The notes under the pieces: model-generated | Databases searched by the model: none | What the model was told of the DNA's origin: nothing | What the model saw: the letters and a program-made list of their open reading frames with translations, nothing else | Translations under genes and position numbers: made by a program | IMG/VR virus record: IMGVR_UViG_3300006108_000069 | Location: 1-22,024 of that record | Length of the DNA stretch: 22,024 bases | Source of the DNA: a virus | Direction: 5' to 3' (one strand) | Part shown: positions 2,806 to 20,385 of the stretch, piece after piece | Numbering within the stretch: the stretch's first letter is position 1 | Layout of the letters: each line of letters begins with the position of its first letter

Positions 2806-3237
2806 ATGACCGCATCTAAGTATGCTTCTGGCAAACACTCGATAGCCGAATGTGACCGATGCGGGCAGCGGTATAAGTTGCATCAGTTAAAAATTGAGAT
2901 TATTAAGACACACCCTTTTAATATTAGGGTTTGTCCGACCTGTTGGGATCCAGATCAGCCACAGTTACAACTTGGTTTATACCCTGTAAATGACCCACAA
3001 GGGGTACGTAATCCAAGACCTGATGTAAGTTATTATTCGTCTGGAACTACAGGGTTGTATATAAACCCAAATGCTAGTAATGATGTAAGTAATGCTGGAT
3101 ACCCTAGCGACGGTAGTAGAAATACACAGTGGGGCTGGAATCCTGTAGGTGGACCTAGAAGTTTTTCAGATGCTTTTAGCCCCAATGATTTAAACTTAGC
3201 GATTACAATAGGCACAGTAACCGTAACAACAACTTAA
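2806..3237 (+). CDS. Zinc-ribbon phage protein next to connector
   Basis: 143 residues. CDRC at 16-19 and CPTC at 43-46 form a CxxC-x23-CxxC zinc ribbon, followed by WDPDQPQLQLGLYPVNDPQ (47-65), a conserved stretch I recall from uncharacterised phage proteins that sit beside the connector gene. The remainder is Asn/Ser/Gly-rich and ends in the Thr/Val-rich strand AITIGTVTVTTT, as often seen in virion proteins. The gene starts two bases after the connector stop. A structural zinc site in a small virion protein is the simplest reading; DNA binding is an alternative. No catalytic motif is visible. Confidence 0.75.
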   Translation: MTASKYASGKHSIAECDRCGQRYKLHQLKIEIIKTHPFNIRVCPTCWDPDQPQLQLGLYPVNDPQGVRNPRPDVSYYSSGTTGLYINPNASNDVSNAGYPSDGSRNTQWGWNPVGGPRSFSDAFSPNDLNLAITIGTVTVTTT

Positions 3238-3241
3238 GGAG
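3236..3241 (+). promoter_or_regulatory. Strong ribosome binding site
   Basis: AAGGAG, seven bases before the ATG at 3249, overlapping the stop codon of the zinc-ribbon gene. Confidence 0.75.
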
Positions 3242-3248
3242 TAGTAAA

Positions 3249-3491
3249 ATGGCAAAAATGGAAAACATGAAAGAAGATATCAAGCAAGATAAAGCTATTG
3301 TTAAAAAAGCTTTTAAAATGCATGATGCTCAAGAACACAAGGGTGGTAAAGGCACTAATCTAGATAATCTTAAAAAAGGCGGTAAGATTAAAAAGATGAA
3401 ACAAGGTGGCGTAACCGGAAAAGAAATGAAAGCTATGGGTCGCAATATGGCTCGTGCTATGAATCAAAAATCTAGCTCAAGAGGTCGTTAA
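3249..3491 (+). CDS. Small lysine-rich phage protein
   Basis: 80 residues, highly basic. It begins MAKMENMKEDIKQDKAIVKK, continues with a His-containing segment (MHDAQEHKGGKG), and has the double-glycine element KKGGKIKKMKQGGV at about residues 41-54. It closes with GRNMARAMNQKSSSRGR. The MAK-x-ENMKEDIKQDK start and the GRNMARAMNQ end are recurrent in uncultured phage genomes, where the protein is unannotated. No fold or function is known. The strong Shine-Dalgarno suggests high expression, as for a virion component. The next gene follows after one base. Confidence 0.75.
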   Translation: MAKMENMKEDIKQDKAIVKKAFKMHDAQEHKGGKGTNLDNLKKGGKIKKMKQGGVTGKEMKAMGRNMARAMNQKSSSRGR

Positions 3492-3492
3492 T

Positions 3493-3795
3493 ATGGCTAC
3501 CCAAATTAAACCAACTACCAAGAATAGTTCGCCTATGCGTACTGGCATGGCTAAAAATAATAAACCTGCCAAAGCATACGAAAAGAACGGTACTGGCGTA
3601 GCTGCAGAGCGTAAAGCTACAGGTTATGCTACAGACCCAAACACCATGAAGGCTGATGAGGTAACTCCGGGTGGTATGCCTGCTATGACAGTATCTATTG
3701 GTAATAAGACTCGTGAACCAAAAACTACTGGTATTGAAGTACGTGGTTCTGGTGCTGCAACTAAAGGTCGTATGGCTAGAGGCCCAATGGCATAA
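3493..3795 (+). CDS. Small phage protein with conserved GAATKG-RMARGPMA tail
   Basis: 100 residues, basic and predicted largely unstructured (Lys, Thr, Gly, Ala, Asn rich). The last 22 residues contain RGSGAATKGRMARGPMA, a C-terminal signature that recurs in otherwise variable phage proteins lying just before the adaptor gene. The conserved tail after a low-complexity body suggests that the tail docks to a partner, perhaps the adaptor or connector encoded next to it (inference). The stop overlaps the adaptor start (TAATG). Confidence 0.75.
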   Translation: MATQIKPTTKNSSPMRTGMAKNNKPAKAYEKNGTGVAAERKATGYATDPNTMKADEVTPGGMPAMTVSIGNKTREPKTTGIEVRGSGAATKGRMARGPMA

Positions 3796-4754
3796 TGAAT
3801 TACGAACAGTTATATAACTCGATTCAAGCCTATACCGAAAACACTGAACAGTTGTTTGTGGCTAATATTCCTGTCTTTGTACAGGAGGCTGAACTTCGTA
3901 TATATAACTCTGTAAACGTACCATCATTACGCAAAAACGTAACCGGTACTATGACATCTGGCAATCAGTATGTTTCCTTGCCTGACGATTGGTTAGCAAA
4001 CTATTCTGTAGCGGTTATAGATCCTACTACTGGAATGTATAACTTCTTAATCAATAAAGATGTTAACTTTATGCGTCAAGCGTATCCTTTTGCTACAAAC
4101 AACGGGACTACGTATCAAGGAACTCCGGGCGGCACACCAAAGTACTACGCACTATTTGGGTCTCAGTATTCAAATATTAACGAAATGACCATTATGGTTG
4201 CACCTACACCGGACCAAAACTATCCGATAGAGATGCACTATTATTACTATCCACCCACCATCGTACAGGGCCAAATTGTTACATTAGGAACGATTACTGC
4301 TGGCTCGCTATATACCAATGGTGTATACCAAAACGTAGCTTTAACAGGAGGTTCAGGTGCTAACGCAACTGCTGATATCGTGGTTTCCGGTGGTGCAGTC
4401 ACATCTTGTAGCCTTAAGTTTGGCGGTAATTTTTATGTCGTGGGCGATGTTCTTTCTTGTGCTTCCCTTGGTCCTACTGGTAGCGGCTTTTCTATTCCGG
4501 TAGCTTCTATATCAAATGCCACAGGAAGTTCTTGGCTTGGCGATAACTTTGACCCAGTACTATTCTATGGTTCTATGCGGGAAGCTATGCTGTTTATGAA
4601 GCAAGAAGCTGACTTAGTAACCAACTATGAGCAAAAGTACCAAGAAGCTTTATTAGAATTTAGACGCTTCTGCGACGGTCTTGATCGTGGTGATAGTTAT
4701 CGTGACGGCCAAACCAAGCTTAATATTGATCTTAAAGGTAATGTGGTCTCATGA
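3795..4754 (+). CDS. Phage adaptor protein (SU10 type) with inserted domain
   Basis: 319 residues. The family pattern is clear: an N-terminal helix with EQLYNSIQAYTEN (4-16), VPVF-type text with VQEAELRIYN (29-38), a strand ending in YVSLPDDW (59-66), GTPKYYALFG (113-122), MTIMVAPTPD (131-140) and a C-terminal helical part, FRRFCDGLDRGDSYRDGQTK (289-308). In SU10-like and related short-tailed phages this protein bridges the portal and the tail nozzle. Residues about 162-240 (YTNGVYQNVALTGGSGANAT onwards) look like a separate beta domain inserted between the YYYYPP strand and SWLGDNFDP. The gene is coupled to both neighbours (TAATG, ATGA). Confidence 0.8.
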   Translation: MNYEQLYNSIQAYTENTEQLFVANIPVFVQEAELRIYNSVNVPSLRKNVTGTMTSGNQYVSLPDDWLANYSVAVIDPTTGMYNFLINKDVNFMRQAYPFATNNGTTYQGTPGGTPKYYALFGSQYSNINEMTIMVAPTPDQNYPIEMHYYYYPPTIVQGQIVTLGTITAGSLYTNGVYQNVALTGGSGANATADIVVSGGAVTSCSLKFGGNFYVVGDVLSCASLGPTGSGFSIPVASISNATGSSWLGDNFDPVLFYGSMREAMLFMKQEADLVTNYEQKYQEALLEFRRFCDGLDRGDSYRDGQTKLNIDLKGNVVS

Positions 4755-5206
4755 TTACCCAAACTTCTTGCACAATTTTTCAGCAAAATTTGCTAAATGG
4801 TAATGAAAACTTTACCACCGGCAGTTATAAAATTGCCCTTTATACCGGATTGGCAAACTTAGGTCAGCAAACTACGGCTTACACTACTACCAATGAAGTG
4901 GTAGGGACGGGCTATACGGCTGGTGGGCAAACTTTAGTTATCTCTGTACCCCCAACCCAAGATAATGTTCATAACATTACCTACGTATCTTTTCAAAATG
5001 CAGTTTGGAACCCAGCAGCCTTTACTGCTAGGGGGGCATTAGTATACAATGCAACTACAGGTGCAGCGTGTTTTGTATTAAATTTTGGGTCAGATAAAAC
5101 TTGTACATCTAGCTTTACCGTGCAATTTCCAACGGCGAATTATTCGTCCGCAATTTTAACCATTGGTACTACTAGCAGTAGTATTAATTATAGTAGTGCA
5201 GATTAG
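4751..5206 (+). CDS. Minor virion structural protein, conserved hypothetical
   Basis: 151 residues, beta-rich, with the conserved order FQQNLLNG (10-17), YKIALYTGLANL (26-37), TTAYTTTNEVVGTGYTAGG (41-59), ARGALVYNA (92-100) and FGSDKTCTSSFTVQFP (112-127). This pattern is widespread among tailed-phage structural proteins, usually unannotated, and is found next to adaptor and fibre genes. It is probably a small beta-sandwich subunit on the tail or capsid surface (inference from composition and place). Translation is coupled to the adaptor gene through ATGA. Confidence 0.75.
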   Translation: MITQTSCTIFQQNLLNGNENFTTGSYKIALYTGLANLGQQTTAYTTTNEVVGTGYTAGGQTLVISVPPTQDNVHNITYVSFQNAVWNPAAFTARGALVYNATTGAACFVLNFGSDKTCTSSFTVQFPTANYSSAILTIGTTSSSINYSSAD

Positions 5207-5832: not shown

Positions 5833-8800
5833 ATGGCTCTTGTTGTCTATGATAGAGTACAGGAAACTACCACTACAACTGGTACTGGCGCAGTTACCCT
5901 TTTGGGTGCTGTTGCTGGTTTTCAATCTTTTGCTGTAGTTGGCAATGGCAATACTACATTTTATTGCATCGCTGACCAAGGCGGAGGTACGAATTGGGAG
6001 GTTGGTGTTGGCACCTACAGCACTACTGGTCCTACTCTTACTCGCACTACTGTTTTTGCTTCTAGTAACAGCGGTTCTTTGGTTAATTTCACCAGTGGCA
6101 CTAAGTCTGTATTTGTTACTTACCCAGCCGAAAAGTCTGTTAACCTTGATGCTTCTGGTAATGTTACTGCTCTTGGTACTGTTAGTTCTGGCACTTGGCA
6201 GGGAACCACTGTAGGTGTTGCTTATGGCGGTACTGGTGTAACTTCCTCTAGCGGTGCTAACTCTGTTGTTTTACGTGACGCTAACTCCAACGTAATTGCT
6301 AATAACTTTCTTGGCGGATATAACGTAATCACTGCCGCCGCTGGTACAACAGTATTGACTGTTGCTTCTGCCTATTATCAGCGTATTAGCGGTTCTACAA
6401 CCCAGACAATCCAGCTTCCTAATGCTACAACAATGGCTAACGGGCAGGGTTTTACTTTTGATAACGATTCTAGCGGCGCTGTAACTATTGTCGATAATGC
6501 TAGCGGATTTATTGATACTGTTCCGTCTGGTGGTTATTCTTATATATTTGTTGAAGACAACAGCACTTCTGCTGGCTCTTGGGGTAAATACGCTTTAATC
6601 CCAGCTTCTTATGACTTTAGTACTTCTACCGCAAACTTTGGTGGCGCAACAATTACTAACGCTACCTACAACGGAAACACGATTGGTACGGCTTATGGTG
6701 GTACAAACTTAACTGGATTTTCAGCCGCTAACAACGCTTTATACTCAACATCATCTTCCGCACTGACTGCAGGTACTTTGCCAGTATTGGCTGGTGGTAC
6801 TGGAGTTACATCGTCTACTGGTTCTGGTTCAGTTGTTTTAAATACTAGCCCAACTTTAGTTACACCTTTACTTGGTACACCAACTTCTGGTAATTTAGCA
6901 AACTGTACTGGATATCCTGCTGGTTCTATCAGCGGCACAATAAATTTAGCTACTCAAGTAACCGGCACACTTCCTGTAGCCAACGGCGGTACTGGGGCTA
7001 CAACACTAACTGGATACATGTATGGTAACGGCACGTCAGCGGTGACTGCTTCTACTACTATTCCGGGTTCTGCAATTAGTGGAAACATATCTGGTAATGC
7101 TGCTAACGTAACAGGCACTGTTGCTATCGCTAACGGCGGTACAGGACAAACTACAGCTTCAGCAGCATTTAACGCTCTTAGCCCAATTACTACTACTGGT
7201 GACTTAATTGTTGGTAACGGCACAAACAGTGCCACTCGTCTTGGTATTGGTACAGCTAATCAAGTTTTAACTTCTAACGGTACAACTGCTACTTGGTCTA
7301 GCCCATCTACTGGCGCTGGTACTATTACTAGAACAGACTTTACAGCTACTGCAGGACAAACTGTATTTACAGTTAGCTATCAGGTTGGTCTGATTGATGT
7401 ATATCGTAACGGTGTTAAGCTAGCTACTACAGACTTTACTGCTACTAACGGTACTTCATTTACTCTAGCAGTCGGTGCTAACTCTGGTGATATTGTACAA
7501 GCCGAAGTATTTAGCTCATTAAATATTTACGCAACCATTACTACCGACACATTTAGCGGCAACGGCTCTACAACTGCATTTACGATGTCTGTTTCACCAA
7601 GCAGTTCTGGTGCTACCTTGGTTGTTATTTCGGGTGTAACCCAAGACCCAAGTTCATATACCGTATCAGGTACAACGCTGACATTTAGCACTGCGCCTCC
7701 TGCTGGTACAAACAACATCTCCGTTCGCTATCTTGGCGTTCCTTCTGTTACTACTGTTGGCTCATTTAGCGGTGGTACTACAGGTTTAACTCCAAGCTCT
7801 GCTACATCAGGCACGGTTACTTTGGGCGGTGTATTAAACGTTGCTAACGGTGGTACAGGTCAGTCTAGCTTTACTTCTGGCGGTGCTTTATATGCTTCTG
7901 GCTCTACAACTATTGCCTCTGGAACCCTACCTGTAACTGCTGGCGGTACGGGCGTAACTACTTCTACTGGTAGTGGTTCTGTTGTATTGGCATCTAGTCC
8001 GACAATCACAACGCCAACAATTAATCAAATCAACACCTCGGTAGCCAACACTTCACTTGGCGCTGGTAACGCTTCTATTATGAAGAACCGTATTATTAAT
8101 GGTGCGATGGTTATCGACCAAAGAAATGCTGGTGCTTCTACAACACCTGCATCGACTTCTTATACTCTTGACCGTTGGGTTGTATATACTCCAGGCAGTA
8201 AATTTAGTGTTCAACAAAATGCTGGTTCAGTAACTCCACCAGTAGGCTTTTCAAAATATCTTGGCATTACATCAACATCAGCATATTCCATCAGCTCTGG
8301 AGATATTAGTGCAATAGCACAATTAATTGAAGGTTATAATGTTGCTGATCTTAATTGGGGCTCTGCAAATGCAAAAACAGTAACTTTATCTTTTTGGGTT
8401 TACAGTTCATTAACTGGCACTTTTGGTGGCGCTTTGTCTAATAACGGACAAACAAGGTCTTACCCATTTAGCTACACAATATCTTCTGCAAACACTTGGC
8501 AACAAATATCTATAAGTATTGCTGGTGATACCACAGGAACATGGACAACCGATAATACTGCAGGAATAAGATTATTTTTTAGTATTGGAACAGGTTCAAC
8601 TTATAGCGGAACAGCAGGTGCTTGGGCTGGAGCAGCTTATCTTTCATCTACAGGTGCAACATCCGTAGTAGGAACTTCTGGTGCAACATTTTATATAACA
8701 GGCTGTCAACTAGAAGTAGGAAGTAGTGCTACTGGATTTGAGTATCGTCAATACACTACTGAATTACAGTTGTGCCAAAGATATTACACATATATCGGAA

Positions 8801-9105
8801 ATGAAACTGTTGGTACTGAAATACCCGCTGGAAGCAACGGTACAGCAAGGGTTCGTGGAACTTACTATTACCCGGTTACAATGCGAGCAGCGCCAAGTGC
8901 ATCAATAGCAGGAACTCCCGGCTTTTATACTTATGCCGGAACAACTCCAACATATAGTAGTCCAGCAAATATTGCTGGAACAACTACTAAATATGCAACT
9001 ATTGACTTAAACATTACAGGCGCCACATTAACTGCAGGACAATGGGCTAATAATATTAGCTTTAATACTACTGGTTGTTATATTGCTTGGTCAGCGGAGT
9101 TATAA
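5833..9105 (+). CDS. Tail fibre protein with GGTG repeats and C-terminal binding domain
   Basis: 1090 residues. The first 105 or so (MALVVYDRVQETTTTTGTGA, then VFVTYPAEKSVNLDASG) are a known virion-attachment domain of phage fibres. A shaft follows with repeated GGTG-type turns (VAYGGTGVT, VLAGGTGVT, VANGGTGAT, IANGGTGQT, VANGGTGQS, VTAGGTGVT) to about residue 715, interrupted by a beta domain at about 499-640 (TRTDFTATAGQTVFTVSYQ onwards). From residue 750 (MKNRIINGAMVIDQRN) to about 985 runs the common receptor-binding jelly-roll domain, with KTVTLSFWVYSS, CQLEVGSSATGFEYRQY and ELQLCQRYYTY, then a variable tip. Fibres bind host surface sugars or proteins. A 22-codon internal duplication (6790-6855 and 7939-8004) lies in the shaft. 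Confidence 0.9.
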   Translation: MALVVYDRVQETTTTTGTGAVTLLGAVAGFQSFAVVGNGNTTFYCIADQGGGTNWEVGVGTYSTTGPTLTRTTVFASSNSGSLVNFTSGTKSVFVTYPAEKSVNLDASGNVTALGTVSSGTWQGTTVGVAYGGTGVTSSSGANSVVLRDANSNVIANNFLGGYNVITAAAGTTVLTVASAYYQRISGSTTQTIQLPNATTMANGQGFTFDNDSSGAVTIVDNASGFIDTVPSGGYSYIFVEDNSTSAGSWGKYALIPASYDFSTSTANFGGATITNATYNGNTIGTAYGGTNLTGFSAANNALYSTSSSALTAGTLPVLAGGTGVTSSTGSGSVVLNTSPTLVTPLLGTPTSGNLANCTGYPAGSISGTINLATQVTGTLPVANGGTGATTLTGYMYGNGTSAVTASTTIPGSAISGNISGNAANVTGTVAIANGGTGQTTASAAFNALSPITTTGDLIVGNGTNSATRLGIGTANQVLTSNGTTATWSSPSTGAGTITRTDFTATAGQTVFTVSYQVGLIDVYRNGVKLATTDFTATNGTSFTLAVGANSGDIVQAEVFSSLNIYATITTDTFSGNGSTTAFTMSVSPSSSGATLVVISGVTQDPSSYTVSGTTLTFSTAPPAGTNNISVRYLGVPSVTTVGSFSGGTTGLTPSSATSGTVTLGGVLNVANGGTGQSSFTSGGALYASGSTTIASGTLPVTAGGTGVTTSTGSGSVVLASSPTITTPTINQINTSVANTSLGAGNASIMKNRIINGAMVIDQRNAGASTTPASTSYTLDRWVVYTPGSKFSVQQNAGSVTPPVGFSKYLGITSTSAYSISSGDISAIAQLIEGYNVADLNWGSANAKTVTLSFWVYSSLTGTFGGALSNNGQTRSYPFSYTISSANTWQQISISIAGDTTGTWTTDNTAGIRLFFSIGTGSTYSGTAGAWAGAAYLSSTGATSVVGTSGATFYITGCQLEVGSSATGFEYRQYTTELQLCQRYYTYIGNETVGTEIPAGSNGTARVRGTYYYPVTMRAAPSASIAGTPGFYTYAGTTPTYSSPANIAGTTTKYATIDLNITGATLTAGQWANNISFNTTGCYIAWSAEL

Positions 9106-9106
9106 A

Positions 9107-9256
9107 ATGAACTATAAATTACTTAAAGATAAAGGCGTTTTGATTGGTGTTGAACGCTCAGATGGTTGGCATATCCCTTTCGACCCAGCCAACACAGACT
9201 ACCAAGCCTACCTAAAATGGCTTGAAGAAGGTAACACACCGGAGGCAGCAGATTAA
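9107..9256 (+). CDS. 49-residue fibre-partner protein
   Basis: A 49-residue gene that exactly fills the gap between two fibre genes, starting one base after the stop of the large fibre with GGAG (9096-9099) at a good distance upstream. The end, NTDYQAYLKWLEEGNTPEAAD, carries the pattern YxxYLxWLxxGNxPxxAD that recurs in small phage proteins beside fibre genes and in C-termini of tail-fibre assembly-type proteins. HIPFDPAN precedes it. I infer a chaperone or capping role for the upstream fibre. The length and exact fit support a real gene; the function is inferred. Confidence 0.75.
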   Translation: MNYKLLKDKGVLIGVERSDGWHIPFDPANTDYQAYLKWLEEGNTPEAAD

Positions 9257-9258
9257 TT

Positions 9259-10698
9259 ATGGCATTAACTAAAGTCCCACTTGATTCTGGCGTAGTAAAT
9301 ACGCTCCCCGTAGCTAACGGAGGAACAGGTTTAACTTCTGTTGGAACAAACGGTCAGGTATTGACTTCGAATGGAACTTCAATGGCTTGGGGTTCTGTTG
9401 CTTCTGTAACACCTGCTGCTGTTTCTGACCAAGCAAACACCTCTACTGGATACTTTGGTTTACCTTCTGGTACTACAGCACAACGTCCGGGTTCTCCAGC
9501 AAACGGATATACACGTTTTAATACGACATCAAATGCAATAGAAACTTACTCAAGTACTAGCTCGGCTTGGGAAATAGTTACTTACTTTACTTTGCCCGGA
9601 GCACCGACTATTGGAACTGCTACAGCAGCTAGCTCAACATCAGCAACAGTAACTTATACTGCACCAGCAAACACAGGGCAGGGAACAAGCTCGCAAGTAA
9701 TTACTTCTTATACAGCAGTTTCAAGCCCCGGTGGAATAACAGGAACCGTATCACAGTCTGGGTCTGGAACAATTACTGTAAGTGGCTTAAGCCCACAAAC
9801 ATCTTATACATTTACTGTATATGCAACAAACGCAGCAGGAAATAGCGCATCTAGTTCTGCTTCAAACAGCATTACAACTCCAGCATCACCTTACACTTTA
9901 ACTTATCTTGTAGTTGCTGGCGGTGCTGGTGGAGCTTCTGGTGGTGGCGGTGCTGGTGGCTTATTAAGTGGTTCTGCACTAGTTACTCCGGGTCAAGTTT
10001 ATACAACTAGCGTTGGTGGTGGAGGCTCTGGTGGTTCTGGTGGAGGCACAACTACTGCAGGATATGGTGGTAACTCTTCTTTAACGGGTAGTGCCATTTC
10101 TGCTACTTCAATTGGCGGCGGTCGTGGTGGAATCATTGGTGACAATGGCGGTGCTAACGGTGCTGGTAGTGGCGGTTCAGGTGGTGGCGGTGGTGGTTGG
10201 TCTGGCGGTACAACAAATGGTGGTTCAGGCACATCGGGCCAAGGTAATAATGGTGGTTCTAATAGCGGAGCTACTGGAAACCCTTACCCAGCTGGTGGTG
10301 GTGGCGGTGCTGGAGCTGCGGGTCAAAATGCTCCTAGTGGCGTAACATCAGGTAACGGTGGTTCAGGTTCTGCTTCTTCTATTACTGGCTCTTCAGTAAC
10401 TTATGCTGGTGGCGGTGGTGGTGGTAGTTATAACGGAGGAAATGCGGGCTCTGGCGGCTCTGGCGGTGGAGGCAATGGCTCAAATAGTGGTAACGGTAGT
10501 GGTGGAACAGCAAACACTGGCGGTGGAGGTGGCGGTGCTCGAAATGGTGGTACTGGCGGCACAGGTGGTTCAGGTGTAGTAATTATTTCCGTGCCTAGTG
10601 GAAGTTACACTGGTACAACTACTGGTTCTCCTACTGTTACTACAAGCGGAGGAAATACAATTATGACGTTTACATCTAGCGGGAGTTATACAGCATGA
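9259..10698 (+). CDS. Polyglycine-rich tail fibre/adhesin with fibronectin III domain
   Basis: 479 residues. Order: a short start MALTKVPLDSGVVNTLPVA with one GGTG turn (about 20-30), an AQRPGSPANGYTRFNTT-type module (about 74-105), a fibronectin type III domain at about 113-210 (PGAPTIGTATAASSTSATVT, SGLSPQTSYTFTVYATNAAG), then a polyglycine-rich domain from about 212 (YLVVAGGAGGASGG) to 445 (GGSGVVIISVPSG) and a short beta end closing with SSGSYTA. Domains starting YLVVAGG and ending GSGVVII belong to a glycine-rich phage adhesin family. By analogy with phage S16 gp38, Gly stretches may pack as polyglycine II helices with variable loops that bind the receptor (inference). No attachment domain like that of the first fibre is seen. 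Confidence 0.85.
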   Translation: MALTKVPLDSGVVNTLPVANGGTGLTSVGTNGQVLTSNGTSMAWGSVASVTPAAVSDQANTSTGYFGLPSGTTAQRPGSPANGYTRFNTTSNAIETYSSTSSAWEIVTYFTLPGAPTIGTATAASSTSATVTYTAPANTGQGTSSQVITSYTAVSSPGGITGTVSQSGSGTITVSGLSPQTSYTFTVYATNAAGNSASSSASNSITTPASPYTLTYLVVAGGAGGASGGGGAGGLLSGSALVTPGQVYTTSVGGGGSGGSGGGTTTAGYGGNSSLTGSAISATSIGGGRGGIIGDNGGANGAGSGGSGGGGGGWSGGTTNGGSGTSGQGNNGGSNSGATGNPYPAGGGGGAGAAGQNAPSGVTSGNGGSGSASSITGSSVTYAGGGGGGSYNGGNAGSGGSGGGGNGSNSGNGSGGTANTGGGGGGARNGGTGGTGGSGVVIISVPSGSYTGTTTGSPTVTTSGGNTIMTFTSSGSYTA

Positions 10699-11042
10699 GT
10701 CATTTTGCTAAAGTTCTTGATGGAAAAGTTATTAATGTTATTGTGGCTGAACCAGAATTTTTTGATTCTTTTATAGACTCGTCACCCGGAACTTGGATAC
10801 AAACTTCTTACAATACATACGGTAATCAGCATAAGTTAGGTGGTACCCCGTTGCGTGGTAACTACGCTGGTATTGGTTATATCTATGATGCTGCAGAAGA
10901 TGTTTTTTATGCTTCACAACCTTTTCCAAGCTGGACACTAAATAAAACAACTTGGCTATGGGAAGCACCGACACCAATGCCAACAGATGATAAACCATAT
11001 AAATGGGACGAAGCTATTAAAGAATGGGTAGAAATTAAATGA
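10695..11042 (+). CDS. Fibre-partner protein (MSHFAKVLDGKV family)
   Basis: 115 residues, starting MSHFAKVLDGKVINVIVAE, with GTWIQTSYNTYGNQH (32-46), LRGNYAGIGYIYD (54-66) and QPFPSWTL (75-82), and ending in KWDEAIKEWVEIK. This is a widely distributed small phage protein, known from cyanophages and others, often next to tail-fibre genes and usually unannotated. The Trp/Tyr-rich beta pattern matches tail-fibre assembly-type or fibre-capping proteins. It shares its plan (NVIV strand, then GIG-Y/F-x-Y/W-D, then a Pro-rich stretch) with the gene at 12125. It is coupled to both the preceding and following adhesin by ATGA overlaps. Confidence 0.8.
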   Translation: MSHFAKVLDGKVINVIVAEPEFFDSFIDSSPGTWIQTSYNTYGNQHKLGGTPLRGNYAGIGYIYDAAEDVFYASQPFPSWTLNKTTWLWEAPTPMPTDDKPYKWDEAIKEWVEIK

Positions 11043-12112
11043 CACAAGCAGCTAACCTAGCCGCAGAAGGCTCAAACGTAAACTCATCTGGCGTACTTCA
11101 AGTCGCAGGCGGCGGTACGGGCGCAACCACTCAAGCGGGGGCGGCAAATGCCGTATTACCTAGCCAAACAAGCCAGTCAGGTAAATACTTAACCACAGAT
11201 GGAACTAACGCATCTTGGGGAACCGTAACATCTAATCCCGGTACCGTAACATCTGTAAATTTAACTGCTGGTACTGCCATATCTGTAAGTGGTGGTCCAA
11301 TTACTTCTAGCGGTTCTATTACCGTAAATAACACTGGTGTTACTTCGGCTGTAGCAGGTACAGGTATTGGTGTAAGCGCTTCAACTGGTGCGGTGACAAT
11401 ATCAAATTCAGGTGTTACTTCTGTTACTGCTGGTACTGGTATTTCCGTATCTGCTTCTACTGGCGGCGTAACTATTACTAATACTGGTGCAACTACTCCT
11501 TATGTTGGTTTTAGAGGGCAAGCATTTACATCTAACGGAACATTTACTATTCCATCAGGCATTACTCAACTTAAAATTACAGTTGTAGGTGGTGGGGCTG
11601 GTGGTTCAGGGGGTCAGTATCCTTGCCAAAGTATTGGTTTAGGAGGAAATGGTGGAACTTCATCTGTTTCTTCAGGAACACAGTCTATTACTACTATATC
11701 TGCAAGTGGTGGTGGTAATGGAAATACTAACGGCCCTACTGGGGGTGCTGGTGGTATAGGCTCTAACGGCACAATTAATATCGGTGGCGGTGCTGGCGGT
11801 AGTTCTGACACCCAAGCTTACGGTACCCCTGGAGCAACTGGTGGCTCATCTACTTTAGGTGGCGGTGGTAATGGCAATTATAATGCTAACGGTAGTGCTG
11901 GTAGAGCTTATGGTGGTGGTGGTGGTGGTGGTTCTGGTTATGGTAATGGAAGTGGTGGCGGTGCTGGTGGAACTGCTATTTCATATTTAACTGGATTAAC
12001 TTCGGGTGGAACTTTATCAGTCACTATTGGATCTGGCGGTGGTGGAGGCTCAACTTCTTATGCTTATAATGGTGCCGCTGGTGCGGCTGGTGTAGTTATT
12101 TTTGAATGGTAA
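11039..12112 (+). CDS. Polyglycine-rich tail fibre/adhesin, second copy
   Basis: 357 residues. It opens with MTQAANLAAEGSNVNSSGV and one GGTG turn (about 23-30). A Ser/Thr/Val repeat zone follows at about 70-150, with the element GVTS(A/V)(V/T)AGTGI(G/S)VSASTG repeated twice and a third related unit before it. A strand-rich linker (FTSNGTFTIPSGITQLKITV) leads into a polyglycine-rich domain from about 179 to 345, closing AAGVVIFEW. This is the same general class as the other two glycine-rich genes, but the linker and loop sequences differ, suggesting a different receptor. It contains a run of seven GGT codons. It is coupled upstream by ATGA. Confidence 0.85.
   Translation: MTQAANLAAEGSNVNSSGVLQVAGGGTGATTQAGAANAVLPSQTSQSGKYLTTDGTNASWGTVTSNPGTVTSVNLTAGTAISVSGGPITSSGSITVNNTGVTSAVAGTGIGVSASTGAVTISNSGVTSVTAGTGISVSASTGGVTITNTGATTPYVGFRGQAFTSNGTFTIPSGITQLKITVVGGGAGGSGGQYPCQSIGLGGNGGTSSVSSGTQSITTISASGGGNGNTNGPTGGAGGIGSNGTINIGGGAGGSSDTQAYGTPGATGGSSTLGGGGNGNYNANGSAGRAYGGGGGGGSGYGNGSGGGAGGTAISYLTGLTSGGTLSVTIGSGGGGGSTSYAYNGAAGAAGVVIFEW
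11912..11932 (+). repeat. (GGT)7 in-frame microsatellite
   Basis: Seven consecutive GGT triplets inside the second glycine-rich adhesin encode seven glycines. Identical codon use over the whole run makes it prone to slippage, and each change adds or removes whole glycines. Confidence 0.9.
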
Positions 12113-12124
12113 TAGGAAAATAAA

Positions 12125-12427
12125 ATGACAACTCAAAATTATTTAATTATTGAAAATAATGTTGTAACTAATGTTGTTGTATGGGATGGCAACACACAAG
12201 ATTGGACACCGCCAGCAGATTCTATTCAATTAATACAAGCAACAACTCCAGCAAAAATTTGGCAATGGGATTCTGCAACTAAAACTTATAGTTTAGTAGA
12301 ACAAGTTGGTGTTGGTGATATTGGATTTACTTGGGATGGAACAGTTTTAACTACAAATCAACCTAAACCAACACCGCCTAAAGCAGAAGCTAATCAACCA
12401 GCAACAACTGGAACTGTAACAGCATGA
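12125..12427 (+). CDS. Fibre-partner protein, small
   Basis: 100 residues, starting MTTQNYLIIENNVVTNVVVW. Then come DGNTQDWTPPADS (21-33), AKIWQWDSATKTYSLVEQVG (43-62), IGFTWDGTVL (66-75) and a Pro/Ala-rich end. The plan matches small tail-fibre assembly-type proteins and the gene at 10695: an N-terminal strand with NVVV, an aromatic middle and a G-I/F-x-W/Y-D turn. It follows the second glycine-rich adhesin by 12 bases, with AGGA upstream of the ATG, and overlaps the cupin gene by ATGA. I infer a folding or capping partner of the adhesin before it. Confidence 0.7.
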   Translation: MTTQNYLIIENNVVTNVVVWDGNTQDWTPPADSIQLIQATTPAKIWQWDSATKTYSLVEQVGVGDIGFTWDGTVLTTNQPKPTPPKAEANQPATTGTVTA

Positions 12428-12705
12428 CAATTGCCGTAGCACCAAAACATAGTTTTACCTATGATGGGGTGCAGCTTATTGTCTATCATGCAAATAAAGG
12501 AGAAGGTTTGCCTAATCATGGACATTCTTTTTCCCATGCAACTATATGCAATGCTGGTTCTTGTTTAGTAAGTCTTGAAGGCAGAAGTTACACCATTGAT
12601 AAAAATTCAACGCCTTTAAATCTTCCTGCTGGTGAGTGGCACGAAATTGAAGCATTAGAAGATGGCACTGTATTTGTAAACGTATTTGCTGAAGGTAAAT
12701 ACTAA
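12424..12705 (+). CDS. Small cupin-domain protein with intact metal site
   Basis: 93 residues, essentially a single cupin barrel. Motif 1 gives H32 and H34 (NHGHSFSHA) with H38 in the place where Glu is usual. Motif 2, LPAGEWHEI (67-75), gives H73. Thus four potential metal ligands are present, so a bound metal is likely. Small cupins in phages have no settled role; enzymatic action on sugars or nucleotides, a fibre-linked structural metal site, and a sensor role are all possible. It sits inside the fibre block, coupled to the partner protein before it and to the repeat protein after it, which argues for a virion or fibre function (inference). Confidence 0.8.
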   Translation: MTIAVAPKHSFTYDGVQLIVYHANKGEGLPNHGHSFSHATICNAGSCLVSLEGRSYTIDKNSTPLNLPAGEWHEIEALEDGTVFVNVFAEGKY

Positions 12706-14420: not shown

Positions 14421-15350
14421 ATGGCTAATACCTACATTAAAGATGGCGGTACTTGGAAGCAGCTAGTAAACGCCTACGTAAATCAATCTGGGACAAATAC
14501 TCAGGTTAAAAAGATTTACGTTAATGATTCAGGCACTTGGAAGCTTGCATATGCGGCTACTTACGCTATAGATTACCTACTTGTTGCCGGTGGTGGTGGC
14601 GCTGGTGGTCGTGGTGGAGCGGGTGGTGGAGGAGCTGGTGGTTATCTTGCTAACTCTGGCACAGTCACTCTTGGCACAAGCTATCCTATTGTTGTTGGCA
14701 CTGGAGGAGCTGGAGCGCCATCAAGCGGTGGTCAAGGCAACAATGGTACTAACTCCACTTTCAATTCATTAACTGCTGTTGGCGGAGGCGGCGGTGGATA
14801 TGGCGGAGCAGGTAATTCTGGTGGCTCTGGCGGTGGCGGTAATGGTAACGGTGGCTCAGGCGGATCTGGCACTTCAGGACAAGGAAATGCTGGTGGTAAT
14901 GGTAATGGCGTTAGCTCTGGAGTCCCTGCAGGCGGAGGCGGTGGTGCGGGTGCGGTTGGTGGAAACGGTAATCCGGGTCAAGCAGGTAATGGTGGCGATG
15001 GTTTAACTTGGTATGACGGCGTAACTCGTGGCGGTGGCGGTGGTGGCGGTTCTCGTTGGGATGACCCACAACATGCAAACTCTGGTTCAGGTGGTGCTGG
15101 TGGTGGTGGTAATGGCGGTACAGGTGCTGGTTCAGTTCCTCCAACAGACGGTACAGCTAATACTGGTGGCGGTGGCGGTGGCCCTCAAGTTTGGGATAAT
15201 GGTGGACGTTATCAAGCTGGTGGATCAGGTGGATCAGGTATCGTAGTATTGCGTTATGCTGGTAGTCAAAGAGGTACTGGAGGAACAGTTGTTTCTAGTG
15301 GCGGATATACGTACCATTACTTCTATTCATCTGGAACTTATACGGCGTAA
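14421..15350 (+). CDS. Polyglycine-rich adhesin, third copy
   Basis: 309 residues. The first 45 hold two related Trp units (DGGTWKQLVNAYVNQSG and VNDSGTWKLAYA), seen at the start of other phage glycine-rich adhesins. The polyglycine domain runs from about 49 (IDYLLVAGGGGAGGRGG) to 290 (GGSGIVVLRYAGS), followed by a short beta closure ending FYSSGTYTA, nearly the same as the SSGSYTA end of the gene at 9259. That shared frame (YLVVAGG to GSGVV to SSG-x-YTA) marks these two as close relatives; the loops differ. The gene follows the fibre at 13614 by three bases and probably forms its distal tip (inference). Confidence 0.85.
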   Translation: MANTYIKDGGTWKQLVNAYVNQSGTNTQVKKIYVNDSGTWKLAYAATYAIDYLLVAGGGGAGGRGGAGGGGAGGYLANSGTVTLGTSYPIVVGTGGAGAPSSGGQGNNGTNSTFNSLTAVGGGGGGYGGAGNSGGSGGGGNGNGGSGGSGTSGQGNAGGNGNGVSSGVPAGGGGGAGAVGGNGNPGQAGNGGDGLTWYDGVTRGGGGGGGSRWDDPQHANSGSGGAGGGGNGGTGAGSVPPTDGTANTGGGGGGPQVWDNGGRYQAGGSGGSGIVVLRYAGSQRGTGGTVVSSGGYTYHYFYSSGTYTA

Positions 15351-19540: not shown

Positions 19541-20008
19541 ATGAACCAAGGTATTGGCGAATTAATGCTTATGAAATCGGCTATGGGTGGGATGAACCCT
19601 GCCGAAAGTAACCAAGGCATAGCTGCAGCTCCTGCACAAAAACCGTCTACAAGTGCTTTAAAGATTTTAACAAGTTATTTCCAGAATAGGGGAATACCCC
19701 TACAGCAAGGATATGCTGCGGTACAGAAAGAGCTTGGCGAGGGGTTAAAACTCCTGCAATTCCAAAATTCTATCTTAGCAATCAAGGACTTAGGTCAAGG
19801 TGTGGCACAGATTCACTTCTTTACTACCGACACCCACGAGCAGTTGGCACAAGATATTAAACACTTTATTGACTTAATGCGTAAAGCTGGTATCCATACT
19901 GTCTATGATAAAGATGCTGACCCTGTATTTATGCAGGCTGCCCAAGAGTTTGGTGTTCAAGCACAACAATCTGATAACCCTCAGTTTAAATTAATGGCTA
20001 CTCTATGA
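19541..20008 (+). CDS. Conserved hypothetical protein, possibly acetyltransferase-like fold
   Basis: 155 residues. A Met/Gly/Ala-rich leader (1-45) precedes an alpha/beta part, with SILAIKDLGQGVAQIHFFTT (about 77-96), a helix DTHEQLAQDIKHFIDLMRKAG (about 97-117), and then a DPVFMQAAQEFGV helix and DNPQFKLMATL end. The order strand-strand-helix-strand-helix-strand resembles the C-terminal half of GNAT proteins, but the acetyl-CoA loop (Q/R-x-x-G-x-A/G) is not visible, so enzyme activity is doubtful. Similar proteins occur in other phages of this type beside a cupin (memory). It overlaps the cupin gene by ATGA. Confidence 0.6.
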   Translation: MNQGIGELMLMKSAMGGMNPAESNQGIAAAPAQKPSTSALKILTSYFQNRGIPLQQGYAAVQKELGEGLKLLQFQNSILAIKDLGQGVAQIHFFTTDTHEQLAQDIKHFIDLMRKAGIHTVYDKDADPVFMQAAQEFGVQAQQSDNPQFKLMATL

Positions 20009-20385
20009 CCCAAGTAGTTCACCGGATTGAATCAGTATTGCCACAGCTTCGGGAGATGCCACAGGTTGAGTGCACCGAGAAGCATTACTTTGCTCCGGGA
20101 ATCTATGTTAAAGAAGTTACTATGCCTGCAGGGTCTATAATTGTGGGTAAGCCCCACAAGACTGAACACTTGTGTGTAATGCTGCAAGGTCGTATGAAGT
20201 TATTAAAAGATGATGGTGAGGTTGTTGAGCTAGTGGCTCCTGCTACTTTTGTAGGAAAACCGGGTCGTAAAGTAGCTCAGATAATTGAGACCGTTGTATT
20301 TCAGAATATTTTTGCAACCGACGAAACTGATGTGGAAAAACTAGAACACATGTTCGTTGAGAATCCGTTATTGGAAGGAAACTAA
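20005..20385 (+). CDS. Cupin-like protein with degenerate metal site
   Basis: 126 residues. The barrel pattern is clear: YVKEVTMPAGSIIVGKPHKT (34-53), EHLCVMLQGRMKLLKDDGE (54-72), VELVAPATFVGKPGRKVAQI (74-93), then VVFQNIFATDETDVEKLEHM (97-116). Motif 1 supplies H51, E54 and H55; motif 2 has GKPGRK where a P-x-G-x-x-H would be, so the second-motif His is missing (Arg88/Lys89). Proteins of this type in phages are annotated as cupins with no known role. The incomplete site suggests a binding or structural function rather than catalysis (inference). It is coupled upstream by ATGA, and its end lies one base before the next ATG. Confidence 0.75.
   Translation: MTQVVHRIESVLPQLREMPQVECTEKHYFAPGIYVKEVTMPAGSIIVGKPHKTEHLCVMLQGRMKLLKDDGEVVELVAPATFVGKPGRKVAQIIETVVFQNIFATDETDVEKLEHMFVENPLLEGN
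20375..20379 (+). promoter_or_regulatory. Ribosome binding site fixing the start of the glycine-zipper protein
   Basis: AAGGA (within GGAAGGAA at 20373-20380) lies seven bases before the ATG at 20387. It supports that start over the in-frame TTG at 20357, which has no such site. Confidence 0.75.

Follow-up and report, generated by a model that had tools for sequence, protein, structure and literature searches.

Three fibre genes and their small followers

The window, that is, the whole 22,024-nucleotide stretch of DNA that was analysed, is a 22 kb viral contig from a lake-water virus of bacteria, with an array of fibre genes within its structural region. The small genes behind the fibres are here called followers A, B and C, and the features of the array are as follows.

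5833..9105, + strand: type A fibre, 1090 aa, matching tail fibre phrog_4492 and ending SAEL
from about 8083, + strand: C-terminal part of the type A fibre, with a RIINGAM/DQRN domain
9107..9256, + strand: follower A, 49 aa, phrog_20370, containing YLKWLEEGN
9259..10698, + strand: type B fibre, 479 aa, with fn3 at residues 115-202 and Gly_rich_2 at 202-444, ending SGSYTA
10695..11042, + strand: follower B, 115 aa, phrog_7759, with a predicted fold like the fibre-binding domain of Pam3 gp25
11039..12112, + strand: type C fibre, 357 aa, with a glycine-rich tip domain from about 11516, ending FEW, fold like Pam3 gp24
12125..12427, + strand: follower C, 100 aa, phrog_14370
12424..12705, + strand: small cupin gene, 93 aa, found behind C in 25 of the 43 loci that could be scored
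12705..13610, + strand: downstream anchor gene (MFG...FAQ.PF..), here after C and the cupin gene
13614 (start): fibre-like gene, beyond the anchor gene
14421..15350, + strand: another Gly_rich_2 fibre, with SGTYTA as its end and no B behind it; the next gene, 18 bases on, is unrelated

As the original prediction had proposed, each of the three fibre genes (5833, 9259 and 11039) has a small gene right behind it, and translation is coupled or nearly coupled, with a spacing from fibre to follower of +1 base for A, -4 for B (an ATGA overlap) and +12 bases for C. Each follower is in turn coupled to what comes after it: a 2-base gap separates A from fibre 9259, and ATGA joins B to fibre 11039 and C to the cupin gene at 12424. 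The YLxWLxxGN motif expected in the first follower is also present. Fibre and follower are separate reading frames with stops between them, in contrast to intramolecular chaperone fibres (T5, K1F), where the chaperone is fused to the fibre C-terminus. The PHROG families matched by A, B and C all lack a function, and searches of Pfam and NCBIfam gave zero matches; for Pfam Caudo_TAP (PF02413) there was no match at E 1 or better for the three followers or for the longer relatives of A described below. Elsewhere in the window, fibre 14421 may rely on the B encoded in the 9259 cassette, and a second cupin-like gene lies at 20005-20385.

Linkage of each follower family to one fibre end type

We examined which fibres accompany the followers in public viral contigs, using two sets of loci. 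For the follower-first set, we collected viral contig loci with relatives of the three followers and counted close variants of each end motif, while loci of the fibre-first set were fetched by fibre domain, regardless of follower. The fibre-first tests are the stronger evidence because the end patterns in the follower-first counts were picked after viewing the data, and the linkage counts are not independent since the contigs are related to one another. Fibre–follower adjacency is far above chance, and each follower family is tied to one type of fibre end: A to SAEL, B to glycine-rich SGSYTA and C to glycine-rich FEW. No cross-pairing between follower classes and fibre end types was found in the fibre-first sets.

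In the follower-first set, all A with an ORF upstream (96/96) stand behind a fibre whose end is EL or closely resembles it. When fibres were the starting point, A adjoined 61 of the 62 scorable fibres with a RIINGAM domain, and B and C adjoined none. Five SAEL fibres seemingly lacking A have a divergent short ORF instead, which is clearly A-like in four cases and doubtful in the fifth (L013). The final S-A-E-L of these fibres is conserved and is preceded by a variable stretch. Divergence of A correlates with that of the last 120 fibre residues (r 0.24, p 0.001), as opposed to r 0.02 for the fibre N-terminus. There are also longer A relatives of 128-148 aa with additional sequence at the C-terminus, one of which, gene 51 of cyanophage S-2L (148 aa), is annotated as tail fibre assembly-like. 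It is located behind a fibre ending TAEL and shares homology with A in its N-terminal part, whereas the remaining C-terminal part, about 90 aa long, is absent from A.

For follower B (follower-first), 61 of the 66 copies with an ORF upstream come after a glycine-rich fibre that ends SGSYTA or a close variant. Of the exceptions, four have one more small gene intervening between the fibre and B, and the fifth (L014) lies behind a fibre with a different, coiled-coil-like end. Starting from the fibres, B adjoins 59 of 74 with an SGSYTA end and lies within 1.5 kb of 2 more, 13 have none, and A and C adjoin none; some tandem SGSYTA fibres share one B. Named phages with B behind glycine-rich fibres include Roseobacter, Methylophilales, Pelagibacter and Synechococcus phages, and a search of genome contigs returned zero B relatives.

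Small genes moving apart from their fibres had been named as grounds against the original prediction. What we found in a distant branch of B is a glycine-rich fibre upstream in 61/65 testable loci, 16 of them adjacent, with B often one or two genes away in the same neighborhood; most of the non-adjacent loci have a small gene and/or a 2OG-Fe(II) oxygenase between fibre and B. Phage P-RSM4 has the same kind of neighborhood. In L227, L228, L239, L250, L268, L277 and L292 (and in P-RSM4, L209), the glycine-rich fibre is followed by a conserved gene set consisting of a protein of about 84 aa (IYRLYGIDTAMHLLRPGA..), a B relative and a 2OG-Fe(II) oxygenase about 200 aa long. Near the P-RSM4 fibre and B lie genes whose annotations read 2OG oxygenase and ferrochelatase, and a role of these neighbors in fibre modification is possible. 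Homing-endonuclease-like genes, so judged by eye, were also seen directly after glycine-rich fibres (L056, about 2190-2700; L063, about 3050-3550 and 4500-4990), two of them, in L056 and L063, between fibre and B.

In all 34 cases with an upstream ORF, follower C comes after a glycine-rich fibre whose last residue is W or Y (follower-first). Fibre-first, C adjoins 39 of 52 scorable FEW/EY-type fibres with a matching or near-matching end, and A and B adjoin none; an apparent B next to a FEW fibre (L501) proved to be a C protein with a weak match to the B model. Since 11 of the 13 fibres without C have another follower of 72-84 aa (MKALIS..TGYRVAQVE..FW..C; L469, L470, L500, L502-L504, L507, L508, L510, L526 and L527), the FEW/EY type is seldom without a small partner. 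A follower like this MKALIS.. type was also noticed behind a fibre in L134, where a cupin-like ORF comes next. Divergence of C correlates weakly with that of its fibre.

Phages from the sea and from fresh water, differing in morphology, show this end-type-specific linkage. It amounts to a simple rule, by which fibre end type predicts partner, and the rule would help to annotate receptor-binding proteins in metagenomic phages.

Exchange of fibre tip and follower as a unit

The N-terminal parts of the fibres cut across these classes. We found 98 cross-class pairs of fibre N-termini passing E 1e-5, the closest agreement being that of the B-type fibres L029 and L033 with the A-type fibre L184 (80% identity over the first 90 residues). 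Since N-termini are common to classes that differ in tip and follower, tip and follower have been exchanged together. The downstream side agrees, with the same anchor gene directly behind A in 11 loci and directly behind B in 10 others. Together with the linkage to end types, these findings uphold the proposal that modular cassettes of fibre and partner move as units.

Linkage of this sort might also arise with no physical partnership at all, if conserved followers served as a 3' homology block for recombination and the tips hitchhiked with them. For B, divergence correlates more closely with the fibre N-terminus (r 0.36) than with its C-terminus (r 0.19 for all pairs, 0.13 for complete fibres), a pattern that fits general relatedness, and several SGSYTA fibres have no B, both of which agree with hitchhiking. 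By itself, however, hitchhiking would predict neither the end-type specificity of the linkage, seen in phages that differ in morphology and come from marine or fresh waters, nor a chaperone-like fold for B (see below), and we regard it as improbable.

Loci with several followers occur in the orders BA (10), AB (3) and ABC (3), the last apparently being copies of this phage. With several fibre types thus combined in a single operon-like array, in this phage and in a few relatives, the branched or multi-receptor fibre that the original prediction had also suggested could arise if the stacked fibres were joined to one another through the small proteins. We consider this very improbable: no connector signature was seen, and the most frequent loci among the stretches fetched have a single follower class, which suggests that a pair can function by itself.

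Predicted fold of follower B and the role of the followers

Follower B was modeled from an alignment of 94 sequences, all from the fetched loci. The model has a pLDDT of 94.5 and consists of strands and loops apart from one short helix. Among 105 chains compared with it, only two gave a Z of at least 2, and both are fibre chaperones: Pam3 gp25 (VIA Z 5.7, rmsd 2.2 over 57 residues, gp25 residues 3-60) and Mu Tfa (Z 2.4). Foldseek also ranked gp25 top, with a weak E of 0.88. The Z of 5.7 is modest, and a common arrangement may be its cause. The helical C-terminal trimerisation domain of gp25 is absent from the B model, and A has only 49 aa. At the sequence level, searches of A, B, C and the fibre tips against solved structures gave no chaperone match, and Pam3 itself is absent from the fibre search, so gp25 was compared with B by structure only.

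The fibre side points to the same system. The modeled C-type fibre domain has a TNF-like and glycine-rich tip fold of the Pam3 gp24 kind, with matches to a Bxb1 tail tip protein (Z 12.1) and to gp24 (7ypx_A; Z 11.7 over 151 residues). Pam3 gp25 binds gp24 3:3 via its N-terminal domain and renders gp24 soluble (PMC9608196). With a C-type tip resembling gp24 and B resembling gp25, a Pam3-like arrangement appears on both sides, the modeled fibre being that of C and the follower B, which are not a cognate pair. When the C-type tip and follower C were folded as a read-through fusion, the tip was good, follower C had a pLDDT of 43-68 and no confident interface was obtained. The proposed chaperone role gains from the predicted fold of B and from the likeness of the C-type tip to gp25's client, but not from a contact between fibre and follower C.

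On this evidence we consider it probable (roughly 0.7) that the followers are dedicated fibre chaperones of a reduced Tfa/gp25-like kind, each matched to a tip type, with the highest confidence for B and lower for A and C. The array would then consist of three stacked cassettes, each made of a fibre gene and the gene for its fibre-folding partner, the partners being reduced relatives or functional analogues of the intermolecular chaperones Mu Tfa and Pam3 gp25. Each partner would attach to its own fibre at the C-terminal domain, near the conserved end (SAEL, SGSYTA or FEW), help the tip to fold and trimerise, and then depart or remain as a cap. Because partner and tip must match, the two would be exchanged as a unit, with the attachment end retained. 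Lacking the helical trimerisation domain of gp25, B and A would be fibre-binding arms only, or would trimerise on the fibre. We infer the binding, the help with folding, its specificity and the extension of B's job to A and C. A more specific form of this idea, which we put forward tentatively, is that the fibre end is an address read by the matching minimal chaperone (a binding arm only) and that three mutually exclusive pairs let the phage display several adhesins.

The same linkage and fold data fit followers that are permanent virion parts, that is, small caps or adhesin tips remaining at the ends of the fibres and contributing to receptor binding, as is reported for Mu Tfa. Mu Tfa is present in mature phages (PMC9608196), and the chaperones of Alteromonas phages have been proposed as transient caps (PMC10579305). 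On the other hand, mass spectrometry of Pam3 virions did not find gp25 (PMC9608196), the closest structural match, and the strong conservation of B, with 15 invariant columns among 94 sequences, is not what a variable receptor-binding tip would show. A permanent role is therefore rather unlikely, and we favor chaperones.

So understood, the three-fibre array is a richer version of the known arrangement of fibre plus chaperone, not a new kind of system. Cyanophage Pam3 (gp24/gp25; PDB 7YPX, PMC9608196) likewise has a glycine-rich fibre with its own chaperone, but it has one cassette whereas this phage has three different ones, no sequence similarity was detected, B lacks the helical trimerisation domain and A is only 49 residues long. 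In phage Mu (fibre/Tfa, PDB 5YVQ), too, a small gene lies directly downstream of the fibre and its product matches the fold of B weakly, but A, B and C are smaller and have no Caudo_TAP match. With neither a sequence match nor the helical domain, the followers are not filed as Tfa members. Alteromonas phages V22 (gp26/gp27) and A5 (gp8/gp9) show the module of fibre and cognate downstream chaperone across morphologies, their chaperones having 195-240 aa, helical bodies and hairpin tentacles (PMC7289586, PMC10579305). The portions of the literature covered by our search contained no description of families A, B and C. Three families with no annotated function, two of which (A and B) have hundreds of copies in viral contigs, are thus likely fibre chaperones, and proteins so small would make fibre–chaperone specificity testable.

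Finally, we asked whether the followers are related to each other. Sequence-level comparison gave no support for a shared origin of A and either B or C. For B and C, the predicted common plan, an NV(I/V)V strand and then a GIG/GF-aromatic-D turn, can be seen, as NVIV and GIGYIYD in B and as NVVV and DIGFTWDG in C, but sequence homology is too weak to make them clear relatives, with hhalign giving a probability of 6.9% over 19 columns. The B HMM scored above 5 bits in 5 of 34 C proteins versus 4 of 340 shuffles, and phrog_14370 matches both B and C.
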